Shown here: positions 10,613 through 26,464 of the stretch, in pieces
Layout of the letters: the number at the start of each line of letters is the position of its first letter
Position numbering within the stretch: position 1 is the stretch's first letter
From: Clostridiales bacterium DTU032
GTDB taxonomy: Bacteria > Bacillota > Clostridia > Saccharofermentanales > DTU023
Length of the DNA: 38,924 nt
Direction of reading: 5' to 3'
Assembly: GCA_001512745.1 (NCBI GenBank)
Contig: LFSM01000109.1
Coordinates: 1,943 to 40,866 of the forward strand
Made by a program: the position numbers and the translations under genes
Notes under the pieces: generated by a model
What the model saw: the letters and a program-made list of their open reading frames with translations, nothing else
Told to the model about the DNA's origin: nothing
Database searches by the model: none

Positions 10613-10680
10613 AAAATAAAGTCCTCTCTGAAAAACTACGCATTTCAGTGTATCATGAATGAACTAAGGAGCGAGAAACA

Positions 10681-10926
10681 ATGGCGAGTAAATCCGGGAC
10701 AAAAAGATCAAAGGCCAAGAATAGCGGCAGAGAACGTTTTAAGTCATTTATGAGCAGTCCGGCGGGCATCTGGATCGCTGCAATTTTATCAGTTGCCTTG
10801 CTTCTGACCATCAATGCCCTGATAGCCGGTAACAGTCTGGATCTTTTTCTTGGTCTCACTGCATTTGTGATAATTGCAGCAACAGTAGTTGTCTGGGTAA
10901 TCCTCCTGCATCGCCGCACAAAATAA
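10681..10926 (+). CDS. Small hypothetical membrane protein (two predicted TM helices)
   Basis: 81-aa ORF with SD AAGGAGCG. Hydrophobic stretches IWIAAILSVALLLTINALIA and LFLGLTAFVIIAATVVVWVILL. Confidence 0.65.
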   Translation: MASKSGTKRSKAKNSGRERFKSFMSSPAGIWIAAILSVALLLTINALIAGNSLDLFLGLTAFVIIAATVVVWVILLHRRTK

Positions 10927-10927
10927 A

Positions 10928-10953
10928 GAAGCATACGCTGCCGCGTATGCTTC
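10928..10953 (-). terminator. Rho-independent terminator downstream of the PRPP synthetase genes
   Basis: GAAGCATACGC-TGCC-GCGTATGCTTC, perfect 11-bp stem. On the minus strand it is followed by TTTATTTTG. Confidence 0.8.
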
Positions 10954-11002
10954 CCGGTAAGTATTATTTGCGCATGAGTATATCTGATGCGTTTTTTTAT
11001 TA

Positions 11003-12226
11003 CTAACAATCTGTCATACGACGTTTTTCCAGCAGGGCACTGATCTTAGCAGTCGGATCGATAAGAGTGGAAATGGATGCGTTGTGATTCATGGCATCGA
11101 TGAGCAGGGCCACGAATTTTGCCATATTTACATCAATATACCAGGGAGCTGCCAGCAACTCGGGAGAGCGGTAGATCAAGTTAGTACAGAGTACATTGTT
11201 GATAACACCGTCACTGTGTGCTTTGTTGAATTCCTCCAGACCGTCAGTGAAAAGGCCAAAGGTGGCGATGCAGAAGATCTTGTTGGCTCCGCGCTCTTTC
11301 AGTTTTCGTGACAATTCAATCATAGATTCACCCGAGGAGATCATATCATCAATAACCAGCAGATCTTTACCCTCTACGGAATCGCCAAGGAATTCATGAG
11401 CGACAATGGGGTTGCGTCCATTTTTCATTACAGTATAGTCGCGGCGTTTATAGAAAGTTCCCAGAGGCAGGCCCAGAATGGAGGCGTAGTACATGGTTCT
11501 GTATATTGCGCCTTCATCCGGAGAAACAACCATGGTGTGTTCCGGAGTAATAGTGAAATCGGGTAACTTGTTGAACAGGGCTTTCAGCACCTGATAGGTA
11601 ATCGGCACGTTTTCAAAGCCACTGGTAGGAGCAGCGTTGGCGACCCGGTCATCATGGGCGTCAAAGGTGATGAAGTTGCTTACACCCAGATTGGTCAACT
11701 CGATCAGCATGTTGGCGCAGTCCAGTGATTCACGGGCATTACGGCGGTGCTGACGGCCCTCATAGAGATAAGGCATGATAACGTTTATGCGCCTGGCTTT
11801 TCCCGAAGCTGCCAGAATGACACGCTTGAGGTCCTGATAATGATCATCAGGGCTCATGTGGTTGTCGATGCCACGTAGATTATAGGTAGCAGTATAATTT
11901 GTTACATCACAGAGTAAATAGAGATCGTGACCTCTGATGGTGTTTTCTATAACAGCCTTGCCTTCACCCGAAGAAAAACGAAAAGTGTTGACCGGAATGT
12001 GATAATCGTCTCTCAGAAAACCGATACTTTCTTCTGCTTCAGGAGCTGTCTCTAAATATTCAGCGCGACGTTTAACCAGATAACTATTAACCAGATTGGA
12101 AAAATCGCGCGCGCCTTTCAGACCGATGATTCCGATCGGACCAAGAGCCGGCATCGGGTTATTACCATACTGGTCGTATTTGTAGTAATTCTTGTCATTG
12201 CGAGGCCCAAGTTTGTTTAGATTCAT
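11003..12226 (-). CDS. prs: Ribose-phosphate pyrophosphokinase (PRPP synthetase), long clostridial form
   Basis: FSSGEGKAVIENTIRGHDLY, MPYLYEGRQHRR, ITFDAHDDRVANA, VVSPDEGAIYRTMYYA, YKRRDY, GDSVEGKDLLVIDDMISSGES. Catalytic and PRPP-binding motifs retained. ATG at 12226 has better SD spacing than the ORF start at 12235. Confidence 0.9.
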   Translation of the reverse strand: MNLNKLGPRNDKNYYKYDQYGNNPMPALGPIGIIGLKGARDFSNLVNSYLVKRRAEYLETAPEAEESIGFLRDDYHIPVNTFRFSSGEGKAVIENTIRGHDLYLLCDVTNYTATYNLRGIDNHMSPDDHYQDLKRVILAASGKARRINVIMPYLYEGRQHRRNARESLDCANMLIELTNLGVSNFITFDAHDDRVANAAPTSGFENVPITYQVLKALFNKLPDFTITPEHTMVVSPDEGAIYRTMYYASILGLPLGTFYKRRDYTVMKNGRNPIVAHEFLGDSVEGKDLLVIDDMISSGESMIELSRKLKERGANKIFCIATFGLFTDGLEEFNKAHSDGVINNVLCTNLIYRSPELLAAPWYIDVNMAKFVALLIDAMNHNASISTLIDPTAKISALLEKRRMTDC

Positions 12227-12264
12227 TTTATACACCCTTCTCTATGTAAAACTTTTACTGTTTT

Positions 12265-13527
12265 TTATATGTCGTAAAAAGATAATTGTCGCTTATCTAC
12301 TGCAGTCTCAGATCGTTGACACATTTCTTTGTGTTTTCTGATCAGGGATTTGATTTTATCTGCCGGCGCCATGAGCTGCGACAAGGAGGCATCGTGATTA
12401 AGCGCATTGATCAGTAGAGCTGTATCATCAGCCATCGGTACAGGAGTGTACCAGGGGGCTGACACTATGGTGGGGGGAAGATAAGACAAGTCAGTTGAAA
12501 AAACTCGTTCAACGATACCACTTGCCCAGGCCTGATGCATGCGGGAGCTTCCATCAGTGAATTGGGCAAAAGAGGTAAAGCAATAGACACGCTTTGCACC
12601 CTGGGCCTTGAGGTATGACGCACATTCAATCAGCCCGTCTCCATTATCCAGCAGATCACCGATCATCAGGATATCCTTGCCTTCTACTGAATCTCCCAGG
12701 TAAGCCAGAGTCTGATGCTCATGTCTTACTCCATCAATGATGTCAAAACTACGTCTTGTGTGGAAAATTCCCAGTTGCAGCTGCATGGTTGATGCGTAAA
12801 AAATGGAACGGTTGATGTTAACTTCATTTGGTGCTACGATCATCATTTTTGACGGGTCCACAACCAGGTCCGAACATGCTTGCAAGATAGTACGTATACA
12901 CTGAAAGGATGTAGGGAAAGATTCAAAATTGTCGTAGGGGACTGCGTTGGCAACACGGCTGTCCGGGGCATCGAAGGTGATAAAATTATCTATCCCTAAG
13001 CTGAATAGCTGCTGCAGCATTCCGCCACAGTCCAGTGACTCCCGCCGACCACGCCGGAAACGCCTGCCTTGGTAAAGATAAGGCATGATGACATTTACCC
13101 TTAAGGCGGAATCCCTGGTTGCTACAATTAGCCTGGTCAAATCATTATAGTGTTCATCCGGACTCATGGTTACCGGACTGCTGTAACGCTCATAAGTTTT
13201 GCCGTGATAAAGAACATCTGTCAGAATATAAAGATCATGGCCCCGCACTGTATCGCAAACAACAGCCTTGCCTTCTCCGGACTTAAAGCGCGAGAGATCC
13301 ACATCAACCCGGTAATCATCGCGCAAATAGCCCGTAAAATCAGTGATTTCCGGAGCTAGCTCTGCGTAAGCTTCGCGCCGGAGCCGCAGCTGACGATTAA
13401 TTCGCTCAGCCAGATGATCTTCTATCTGGGCGCTTATAATAGCAATAGGTCCAAGCGGGTCAAGCATCGTATCATCTTTTAAGATGTTTCTGGATGAGTC
13501 GCCTGCCGGAAACTTTAGTTCATTCAT
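12265..13527 (-). CDS. PRPP synthetase paralog, probably catalytically inactive
   Basis: Full-length homolog of the adjacent gene (FKSGEGKAVVCDTVRGHDLY, MPYLYQGRRFRR, GDSVEGKDILMIGD), but the key motif residues are substituted (see findings). Confidence 0.85.
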   Translation of the reverse strand: MNELKFPAGDSSRNILKDDTMLDPLGPIAIISAQIEDHLAERINRQLRLRREAYAELAPEITDFTGYLRDDYRVDVDLSRFKSGEGKAVVCDTVRGHDLYILTDVLYHGKTYERYSSPVTMSPDEHYNDLTRLIVATRDSALRVNVIMPYLYQGRRFRRGRRESLDCGGMLQQLFSLGIDNFITFDAPDSRVANAVPYDNFESFPTSFQCIRTILQACSDLVVDPSKMMIVAPNEVNINRSIFYASTMQLQLGIFHTRRSFDIIDGVRHEHQTLAYLGDSVEGKDILMIGDLLDNGDGLIECASYLKAQGAKRVYCFTSFAQFTDGSSRMHQAWASGIVERVFSTDLSYLPPTIVSAPWYTPVPMADDTALLINALNHDASLSQLMAPADKIKSLIRKHKEMCQRSETAVDKRQLSFYDI

Positions 13528-13590
13528 ATAAGTCCCTCCGTATGTGTATGATTATAGCAGAGTAATATTGATGAAAAAAGGAGCAAAAGC

Positions 13591-24034: not shown

Positions 24035-25450
24035 ATGAAAAACCAGTTTAAGTGTAGCAGAAAACAAAAATACAGGCAGCGGGGCAGTCTTACTCTGGCC
24101 TGTTGCCTGATGTTGCCGGCAATAACCCTGCTGATGATTTCTCTCTTGGTCGGCAGTAGCTGGACACGAGAAGATCTGGACGCAATACGTGCTGCAAAGC
24201 AAAGTGCTGATTCTGCACTTGCAGCTTTTGACCGTGGCTTGTATCGGGATTTCGGGCTCTTTGCTCTGACGGATCAGGAAGTAAATCGGACCTCGTCAGA
24301 ATATCTGCTGCCGGATACTTTTTGCCAGAAGATTACGGTTAAGGAGAGTCTCTATGATAATGATCTGCTCATGGGCGCAATCGCACGACATATGAGTGTG
24401 CGCGCAACTGCAGGCCTGGTCGATGAAGCCATCAGCCGTATCCGCGTGATCAGGGACATTCTGCCGGATAAAATGGCGGATTCTGTAAGCTCATTGGTCG
24501 CTGCCGATCCTGATACAATTAGCCCTGATCTAGAAGAGGATGAGTCAAATGAAGAGTGGTTTTCTGAATATTCCAAGTATATAGATCAGGAGTACCGTGA
24601 AGATTATCATGATTCGCTCCTGGCCCTGTCTCCGGTTTATGTCCCGGATGCCAGCGGAAGCGGTACAGTAGAAGATTTCGATCCTTACAAAGTATCAAGT
24701 CTGGAAAAACTGGCACAGGGCCTTGATACAATGATGTTCACTCTGCCTGAGGGATTCACTGATCAGATACTTTTATCAGAATATACGCTGTCCTACTTTG
24801 GTTCACAGGTAAATTCACTTAAACAAAACGGTAGCACAAAACAGTACCGTACTCCGGATGGAAGACTGCATAGCCAGTTTGCAGAATCCAGACAATATGA
24901 ACAGGAAATGATAGCGACCGGCTCTACAGGTGAAAAAGCTGCCCGGAATGTCAAATACTTCCTCACCGGCTTTCGTATATTGGTCAATCTGCTTTCTACT
25001 ATCCTGTCTTCTGATGAACTTGCGCTTTACGATGCAAAAGCAGCAGCTATTTCTGCTAGTGTTGCAGTAATCTCTCTTGGTTTTATCACGATTCCCCCGG
25101 AAGCGATTTCAGCTGTGTTGATAATTTCTGATTCAATAGCAGGTGGAATCAAAGATAAGAACAAATTACTGGATGGAGAGGAAATTAAACTCTGGCCTTC
25201 AGCAGGAGCCGAAGCCTTCAAGGTCAATTATCGTGATCACCTGCGTCTTTTGATTCTGTTTCAGCCAAAAGAAAAGCTTCTGGAACGGATTTCAGCTGCA
25301 ATTAAGCAAAACTACGGGGACGAATATTTTACAGCTGTGTCCTGTGAAGTAACACGTCCTGCTTATGTTGTTGGTAAGTTTTCACGGCGCGACTTTGCAA
25401 TCACGATTGAGCGCAGATACTTTTCTCGCAAAGAAAAAGAGACCCAATAG
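24035..25450 (+). CDS. TadG-like/DUF5702-like membrane-anchored extracellular protein
   Basis: RGSLTLACCLMLPAITLLMISLLVGSSW TM, then SADSALAAFDRGLYRDFGLFALTD; C-terminal VNYRDHLRLLILFQPKE as recalled for clostridial DUF5702 proteins. Confidence 0.65.
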   Translation: MKNQFKCSRKQKYRQRGSLTLACCLMLPAITLLMISLLVGSSWTREDLDAIRAAKQSADSALAAFDRGLYRDFGLFALTDQEVNRTSSEYLLPDTFCQKITVKESLYDNDLLMGAIARHMSVRATAGLVDEAISRIRVIRDILPDKMADSVSSLVAADPDTISPDLEEDESNEEWFSEYSKYIDQEYREDYHDSLLALSPVYVPDASGSGTVEDFDPYKVSSLEKLAQGLDTMMFTLPEGFTDQILLSEYTLSYFGSQVNSLKQNGSTKQYRTPDGRLHSQFAESRQYEQEMIATGSTGEKAARNVKYFLTGFRILVNLLSTILSSDELALYDAKAAAISASVAVISLGFITIPPEAISAVLIISDSIAGGIKDKNKLLDGEEIKLWPSAGAEAFKVNYRDHLRLLILFQPKEKLLERISAAIKQNYGDEYFTAVSCEVTRPAYVVGKFSRRDFAITIERRYFSRKEKETQ

Positions 25451-25471
25451 ACATAGAAACAAGAGGGAAAA

Positions 25472-26464
25472 ATGAATACAGGACGCAGGAGCACAAAACG
25501 GAAAAATAACATCAAAGCATCAATGGCCCTGGAAATGGCAGTCATTTTGCCTATTATTCTATTTATCATTTTCGTATTTTACGGACATGTGCAGGAAATC
25601 GAACAATCCATATCAGCTCGCCATGCTTTGGATCAGCTGGCCAGTGAAATCGAGCTTCTCTATCCGCTTTCTGATCTGATTTCAAGCGGTGAGGAAATCA
25701 GTGATTCACAATTGCTGCAGATTATCGATGATTTAGGTATTAAAGACCATATTATGGATTTCGCAGTTGATATAGTGGCCAGCTTGCTAGCCGGACCGGT
25801 ACTGAACCAGCGATACAATCACTGGCTGGAAGAGATTTGCGCTGCCCGCAGTCAGGATGTACCTCAGGGCGAGCGCCGGTTTTTTGTGGATTATGTTCCA
25901 GAAAGAAATTTGATTTATTTGGGCATGTCATTTAGCCGGACGTCCTTAATGGCATCCGGTGAAGAGTATGTAAAAAGCTCAGTGCCTCTTTGGTCCAGAG
26001 GAAAATACAATTTCAATAATAATTCAAATACGGATGATGAAGAGGAGGCAGACGATATCTGGAATATGTCAAATTTTCAGCGTGGACTGGAGTTTCAAGA
26101 GATGTACGGCGCTAATCTTCCCACTACTTATCCCACGATTGCCCGCTGGAGTTCAGCCACCGCTACATCGATCAAAAGCATGGATCTTACTGCCCCTTCC
26201 TGGCAGACAAGAGGGGCTGCCGAAGGCCGGGTTTACTCTTTTATAGATAACTTGTCAGCTTTTGAGGGTGGCCCTGAACCCGGGCCTGGCATAGGAGAAA
26301 TAAGAAAAAAGCAGTTGATCTTGATCGTACCTCGAAATCATGCCGGCTGGCTGGATGATGAGGTAATCAGTCAATGGACCAGCTACGCCTCGGGATACGG
26401 TGTAGAATTGGAGGTAAGCCGTTATGGTGAAAGTAAGCGTTATCAGCCGGCAGGAGAAAACTGA
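25472..26464 (+). CDS. TadE-like pseudopilin domain protein
   Basis: N-terminal KASMALEMAVILPIILFIIFVFYGHVQEIEQSISARHALDQLASEIELL, TadE-like. Confidence 0.65.
   Translation: MNTGRRSTKRKNNIKASMALEMAVILPIILFIIFVFYGHVQEIEQSISARHALDQLASEIELLYPLSDLISSGEEISDSQLLQIIDDLGIKDHIMDFAVDIVASLLAGPVLNQRYNHWLEEICAARSQDVPQGERRFFVDYVPERNLIYLGMSFSRTSLMASGEEYVKSSVPLWSRGKYNFNNNSNTDDEEEADDIWNMSNFQRGLEFQEMYGANLPTTYPTIARWSSATATSIKSMDLTAPSWQTRGAAEGRVYSFIDNLSAFEGGPEPGPGIGEIRKKQLILIVPRNHAGWLDDEVISQWTSYASGYGVELEVSRYGESKRYQPAGEN

Follow-up and report, generated by a model that had tools for sequence, protein, structure and literature searches.

A catalytically degenerate PRPP synthetase paralog kept beside the canonical enzyme suggests a two-part enzyme in Clostridia

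PRPP synthetase is an essential nucleotide-precursor enzyme, and its bacterial form is usually described as a single homo-hexamer. The window analyzed here, a stretch of 38,924 nucleotides from Clostridiales bacterium DTU032 (contig LFSM01000109.1), raises the question of why a bacterium should keep, next to a canonical copy of this enzyme, a second full-length copy that has lost much of its catalytic apparatus. A survey of 29,322 bacterial sequences counted 37 origins of PRPS pseudoenzymes, all of them eukaryotic, and described the catalytic residues as retained throughout the prokaryotic classes (PMC13252144, a 2026 preprint); by this account, regulatory pseudo-subunits of PRPP synthetase are so far eukaryotic only. 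In the open-access literature, we found no reported bacterial counterpart of a PRPSAP-like partner and nothing relevant on heteromeric Prs in bacteria or on two prs genes in Clostridium.

In class I PRPP synthetases, one active site is formed by the FLAG segment of one subunit together with the regulatory flexible (RF), PPi, catalytic flexible (CF) and R5P loops of its neighbor (PMC6332680, PMC12238573). Within FLAG, Phe35 and Glu39 hold the ATP adenine, and the allosteric site of the E. coli enzyme (Arg49, Ser308, Ser310) sits where three chains meet (PMC6332680).

The two copies and their locus

Two intact minus-strand open reading frames occupy the locus (Table 1), in agreement with the initial annotation, which had described two full-length adjacent paralogs. 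Copy B lies upstream of copy A, and 38 bases separate them. Copy A can be read from a GTG (11003–12235) or from an ATG (11003–12226), of which the ATG is preferred because the GTG falls within the GAAGGG Shine-Dalgarno sequence. No terminator-like site was found on the minus strand between the copies, and together they look like a single two-gene operon, closed by the terminator after copy A. That terminator is overlapped by a 118-aa reading frame with a TTG start (10653–11009, minus strand), which is probably no gene. Elsewhere in the window (24035–26464, plus strand) lie two adjoining reading frames, of which one matches DUF5702 weakly and the other has no Pfam match.

Table 1. Features of the PRPP synthetase pair, in window coordinates. 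Residue numbers refer to E. coli Prs, except for the ranges given within copy B.
Feature	Position	Strand	Basis
Copy B, catalytically degenerate PRPP synthetase paralog, 420 aa	12265..13527	-	ORF list, NF005299 score, AlphaFold2 model
Copy B, Shine-Dalgarno GGAGGG, strong	13534..13539	-	sequence
TATAAT, -10-like hexamer before copy B	13556-13551	-	sequence; promoter role inferred
Copy B, FLAG half-site RFKSGE, residues 80-85, retained (Phe/Tyr35, Glu39)	13273..13290	-	invariant in genus
Copy B, DTVRGHD, residues 92-98, allosteric-site Arg49 retained	13234..13254	-	alignment
Copy B, RF loop QGRRFRR, Gln97 to Arg	13051..13071	-	alignment
Copy B, FDAPDS, catalytic His131 to Pro	12958..12975	-	alignment
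Copy B, PPi loop IVAPNEVNINR, Asp170 to Asn	12808..12840	-	alignment
Copy B, CF loop FHTRRS..., Lys194 to Thr, entire loop diverged	12700..12765	-	alignment, genus variation
Copy B, R5P loop MIGDLLDNGDG, Asp220 to Gly, T225 to Asn, T228 to Gly	12634..12666	-	alignment
Copy B, C-terminal NHDASLS, allosteric-site Ser308/Ser310 retained	12379..12399	-	alignment
Copy A, canonical PRPP synthetase, NF005299/PRK06827 type	11003..12226 (ATG)	-	NF005299 score, all catalytic residues present, Shine-Dalgarno
Copy A, Shine-Dalgarno GAAGGG	12240-12235	-	sequence
Copy A, FLAG half-site RFSSGE, intact in window's genome	11963..11980	-	alignment
Copy A, CF loop FYKRRD...RNPIVAHE, intact	11393..11455	-	alignment
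Copy A, R5P (PRPP) loop VIDDMISSGES, intact	11324..11356	-	alignment
Intrinsic terminator, 13-bp stem and T-rich tail, directly after copy A	10926..10955	-	sequence

Both proteins score above the cut-off of 327 bits for NF005299 (NCBIfam), copy A with 524 bits and copy B with 373, and are members of the NF005299/PRK06827 type, whereas on TIGR01251 (ribose-phosphate diphosphokinase, cut-off 113) copy A passes at 154.8 bits and copy B fails at 93.3. The frame of copy B is intact, as had been proposed; the high overall similarity claimed along with it comes down to 45% identity to copy A over 376 residues, aligned without gaps. A single-chain AlphaFold2 model of copy B (pLDDT 86, pTM 0.85) matches Prs structures across both domains, with TM scores of about 0.83–0.88 by target length and E-values down to 7e-22; the best fold match in the PDB is E. 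coli Prs (6asv), and human PRPSAP1 gives a TM score of 0.83.

The catalytic residues were compared by alignment to E. coli Prs, whose numbering is used throughout. Copy A has every one of them (R96, Q97, H131, D170, K194, R196, D220, D221, S225, G226, S228), and all 11 positions are canonical, as the initial reading of its motifs had indicated. The corresponding residues of copy B are R96, R97, P131, N170, T194, R196, G220, D221, N225, G226 and G228; the substitutions that had been claimed for it are all borne out, seven of the 11 catalytic-half residues being changed (Q97R, H131P, D170N, K194T, D220G, T225N, T228G) and R96, R196, D221 and G226 being left. Of the residues that define class I competence (H131, D170, K194, R196, D220/D221, T225 and T228, or equivalents), copy B lacks H131, D170, K194, D220, T225 and T228 and copy A has all, and alignment found no intact catalytic residues elsewhere in copy B. 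The same substitutions are carried by both of the nearest named relatives, 'Mageeibacillus sp.' UBA5439 and UBA5442 (class Clostridia), whose B copies are 93% and 86% identical to that of the window, so that a sequencing error can be set aside.

Selection on the pair and its spread through the order

Purifying selection on copy B is equal to that on copy A. For genomes G000 and G002, between which synonymous sites are unsaturated, copy B has a dN/dS of 0.054 and copy A one of 0.062; another 12 measurable comparisons within the order give a range of 0.016–0.091 over both copies and of 0.018–0.091 for B alone. The protein encoded by copy B is therefore being maintained, as the initial annotation had supposed from its intact frame.

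On the alignments, the loss of residues in copy B is selective: the PPi, CF and R5P loops are hit, and the FLAG half-site and the allosteric Arg49 are spared. Within the window's genus, none of the 9 sites of the FLAG segment of B is variable, nor any of the 7 around Arg49 or of the 11 in the C-terminal Ser308/Ser310 segment; in the CF loop, 10 of 22 sites vary in B, compared with one of 22 in A. The R5P loop of B has acquired a new sequence, GDLLDNGDG, that is fixed in the genus. Across the order, B copies keep the consensus of A at a frequency of 0.86 in FLAG (0.92 in A itself) and 0.89 around Arg49 (0.95 in A), whereas the corresponding values for the CF, R5P and PPi loops are 0.31, 0.53 and 0.56. 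Among 128 positions that are invariant in A, residues of the RF, CF and PPi loops are those least kept in B. Arg49 is present in 51 of 51 B copies of the order, Ser308 in 49 of 51, and F/Y35 and E39 in all.

Degenerate copies under purifying selection recur in close relatives, so that their presence extends well beyond the window. PRPP synthetase matches were obtained in 56 of 59 related genomes, nearly all as two adjacent copies of the NF005299 type, and a search of these genomes with the N-terminal Prs domain found no PRPP synthetase besides copies of that type. Likewise, none was found beyond the B/A pair in the window's own genome, which is 88% complete. The pair is thus the sole PRPP synthetase in this genome and in nearly all relatives in the order, and the idea that a second canonical Prs elsewhere makes it dispensable was discarded, as there is none in the genome or the order; a catalytically damaged partner has been kept across a bacterial order within the cells' only PRPP synthetase.

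Across the four families (f1–f4), EngB flanks the pair in almost every genome, with A downstream of B in f1–f3 and upstream of B in f4. In every pair of the four families, one copy is canonical throughout the catalytic half and the other is degenerate, which rules out a change confined to the window's genus. The degenerate copies have lost the flexible-loop Lys194, most often to Arg, with the exception of G057, in which Lys is kept and Arg196 lost. Those of the window's family have also lost Gln97, and the deepest loss is in the window's genus. The replacements vary by genus (D220 to A, S or G; K194 to H, L, T, S, M, R or N), and many B copies of other genera have just one or two changes, such as K194R or Q97R, G041 and G057 being among the least changed. 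In one f3 genome (G051, locus L137), the EngB-Prs-NFACT neighborhood holds copy A alone with both half-sites intact, B having been lost naturally or never gained; the B copy of genome G053 (L139) aligns with a CF-loop gap at its YRK motif.

Among 292 genomes of Clostridia, the NF005299-type enzyme is present in 103, with two full-length copies only in the window's order and in family f27, and with one partial two-copy case in family f37. A search within f27 itself recovered the enzyme from 149 of 150 genomes, frequently in two copies. This family probably corresponds to Lachnospiraceae, in view of named Lachnospiraceae loci with similar pairs of unlinked copies. A single clade of all B copies in the order is compatible with the data (p-AU 0.38). 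The Lachnospiraceae pairs form a clade of their own, which therefore implies at least two duplications overall, rules out one duplication behind all pairs, and gives Lachnospiraceae a second, independent origin. One member of that family, Butyrivibrio sp. NC2002 (G065), has a third Prs copy (L179) that is long-branched and complete.

Reciprocal loss of half-sites

Some canonical copies of family f4 lack the FLAG Phe (RLDTGE, RLETGE, RLPTGE, REQTGE) and have partners that keep RF..GE, as in genome G044, where a RLDTGE copy A goes with a copy B reading YRQRK; at loci L128, L130, L136, L138 and L140, the Phe has gone from A in about three or four lineages. Loss of FLAG in A beside a partner that keeps it suggested complementary half-sites, and the expectation was set beforehand that canonical Lachnospiraceae copies deficient in the FLAG Phe would have a FLAG-keeping partner paralog elsewhere in the genome. 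Such partners were found: a RAHTGE copy goes with a partner reading EGRMN/YRRKD, a RCMTGE copy with one reading ESRQN/YRRRD, and in Sarcina sp. DSM 11001 a canonical RSPTGE copy goes with a partner reading ESIQS. The unlinked complementary pairs of Lachnospiraceae (L163/L180, L164/L181, L158/L182, L241/L250) stem from the separate duplication. Four other partners in this family (L160, L240, L242, L243) have Arg96 to Leu as their sole catalytic-half change (e.g., ESLQS), which may represent early decay of the same type or an altered nucleotide recognition.

Taking all paired proteins together, FLAG is kept in 59 of the 59 that have lost at least one catalytic-half residue. Conversely, the nine paired copies without the FLAG Phe, from nine genomes, are each intact in the catalytic half, and each has a partner that is catalytically deficient but retains FLAG; a tenth flagged copy (L183), on a truncated contig, is left out of this count. 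No protein lacking both halves was found among the paired copies examined. In 20 genomes of other Clostridia, the single copy always keeps both FLAG and the catalytic half, save for one mild T225A, and general drift was rejected as the cause of FLAG loss, which is absent from these 20 as well as from 10 single-copy Lachnospiraceae. The tree implies about 6–7 independent FLAG losses. For the Lachnospiraceae pairs, a hypergeometric test that counts related genomes as independent gives p = 0.012; a phylogenetically corrected paired test, underpowered at about seven FLAG losses, gives a median sign-test p of 0.5 and never the opposite direction. The strongest argument that an active site is shared between the copies lies in these reciprocal losses, where the active copy lacks precisely the half-site retained by its partner.

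A two-part enzyme and competing explanations

Since copy B has dropped the catalytic half and kept FLAG, the fold and Arg49/Ser308/Ser310, we consider it likely that it is a non-catalytic subunit (pseudoenzyme) of PRPP synthetase that donates FLAG, and is probably regulatory, in a heteromer with copy A. Such a heteromer might be an A3B3 hexamer, in which the FLAG segment of B would complete the active site of A and the loops of A would do the chemistry, the partner position occupied by B remaining silent. B would also set how many sites are active and how these respond allosterically, and it would contribute to the phosphate/ADP site formed by Arg49, Ser308 and Ser310. Against this reading, copy A of the window keeps both halves and could work alone, and a relative (G051) has A only at the same locus. 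As A of this lineage has its own FLAG, B may be stimulatory or regulatory here and not strictly required, which fits the A-only relative. Moreover, conserved surfaces are no proof of pairing, as PRPSAP1 hardly binds PRPS1 in the absence of other partners even though the interfaces are conserved (PMC12238573). A and B would depend on each other in f4 and in some Lachnospiraceae. For several Clostridia, the balance tips slightly towards an obligate two-half enzyme as the sole PRPP synthetase, with A lacking FLAG, B lacking the catalytic half, neither working alone and all sites lying across the A–B interface; the window's pair, with only B degenerate, would then represent an earlier stage.

Alternatively, copy B could be a neofunctionalized enzyme that binds nucleotide and sugar phosphate and performs a different chemistry independently of A. 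The intact, strongly selected fold, the retention of D221 and G226 and the new, genus-fixed R5P loop are compatible with this, but the losses at D220 and K194 differ from genus to genus in a manner that resembles relaxed constraint rather than new conserved chemistry, what B has kept is the trans-acting FLAG half and an allosteric Arg, and B shares a tandem operon with A, so that we regard it as unlikely. A free regulatory protein, or a nucleotide/phosphate sensor outside the PRPP synthetase oligomer, is quite improbable: it would agree with the conserved residues of the allosteric site, yet that site spans three chains (PMC6332680), so its retention argues for assembly, and the reciprocal loss of FLAG would be left unexplained. 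We give very little credence to the two copies being isozymes, with B partly active through compensating residues such as Arg for Lys194. The many B copies of other genera with one or two changes speak for it, and it may apply to the least changed among them (e.g., G041, G057), but not to the window's, whose genus has lost H131, D170, K194, D220, T225 and T228. Decay of B into a pseudogene, or an artefact of assembly, as the loss of seven catalytic-half residues might hint, is barely credible and was dismissed in view of the open frame, Shine-Dalgarno sequence and dN/dS of about 0.05 of B, the identical substitutions in its congeners and the fact that almost every relative has a degenerate copy.

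Copy B was compared with the mammalian PRPP synthetase-associated proteins PRPSAP1 and PRPSAP2 (PAP39/PAP41), as the initial annotation had done. According to PMC12238573, these have lost the equivalents of D171, K194, R196 and T225 but retain the FLAG region and form assemblies with the active enzyme; the authors of that paper propose that the conserved FLAG allows a working PRPSAP–PRPS dimer. Copy B resembles them, by the definition given there, as a class I paralog with its catalytic loops lost and FLAG retained. The annotation's suggestion of a comparable subunit gains support from the selective retention of FLAG in B and its reciprocal loss in several partners, which favors a heteromer over an altered stand-alone enzyme. 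In contrast to PRPSAP, B copies score as NF005299 and branch among bacterial NF005299 proteins (in trees built without any PRPSAP sequence), the pair sits in a tandem operon, and copy B, gap-free against A, lacks the long CF-loop insert; a sequence search with copy B recovered PRPSAP1 as a weak match only (E = 5.7e-6). Some bacterial lineages also differ in that the partner enzyme has lost its own FLAG, for which no parallel in PRPSAP was found in the available part of PMC12238573. By sequence, B is a bacterial NF005299 member, not a PRPSAP by descent, and it would work like one. A PRPSAP-like partner subunit of independent bacterial origin appears to be the best explanation, and the order-wide pair points to a two-part enzyme such as has hitherto been described in eukaryotes. 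The suggested PRPSAP-like role, the lending of FLAG to a neighbor's active site, becomes directly testable in the bacterial pairs with two small proteins.

Like the 37 eukaryotic PRPS pseudoenzymes, copy B is a catalytically disrupted duplicate kept beside an active copy (PMC13252144). By score, A and B belong to the NF005299/PRK06827 enzymes of Clostridia, whose single-copy members are complete by sequence; unlike these, B lacks catalytic residues and some paired members split the half-sites. In trypanosomatids, a dead paralog likewise completes or activates its sister enzyme in principle, as for AdoMetDC with prozyme and for deoxyhypusine synthase, although those pairs belong to eukaryotic parasites and have folds unrelated to that of copy B (PMC5201418, PMC3663545).
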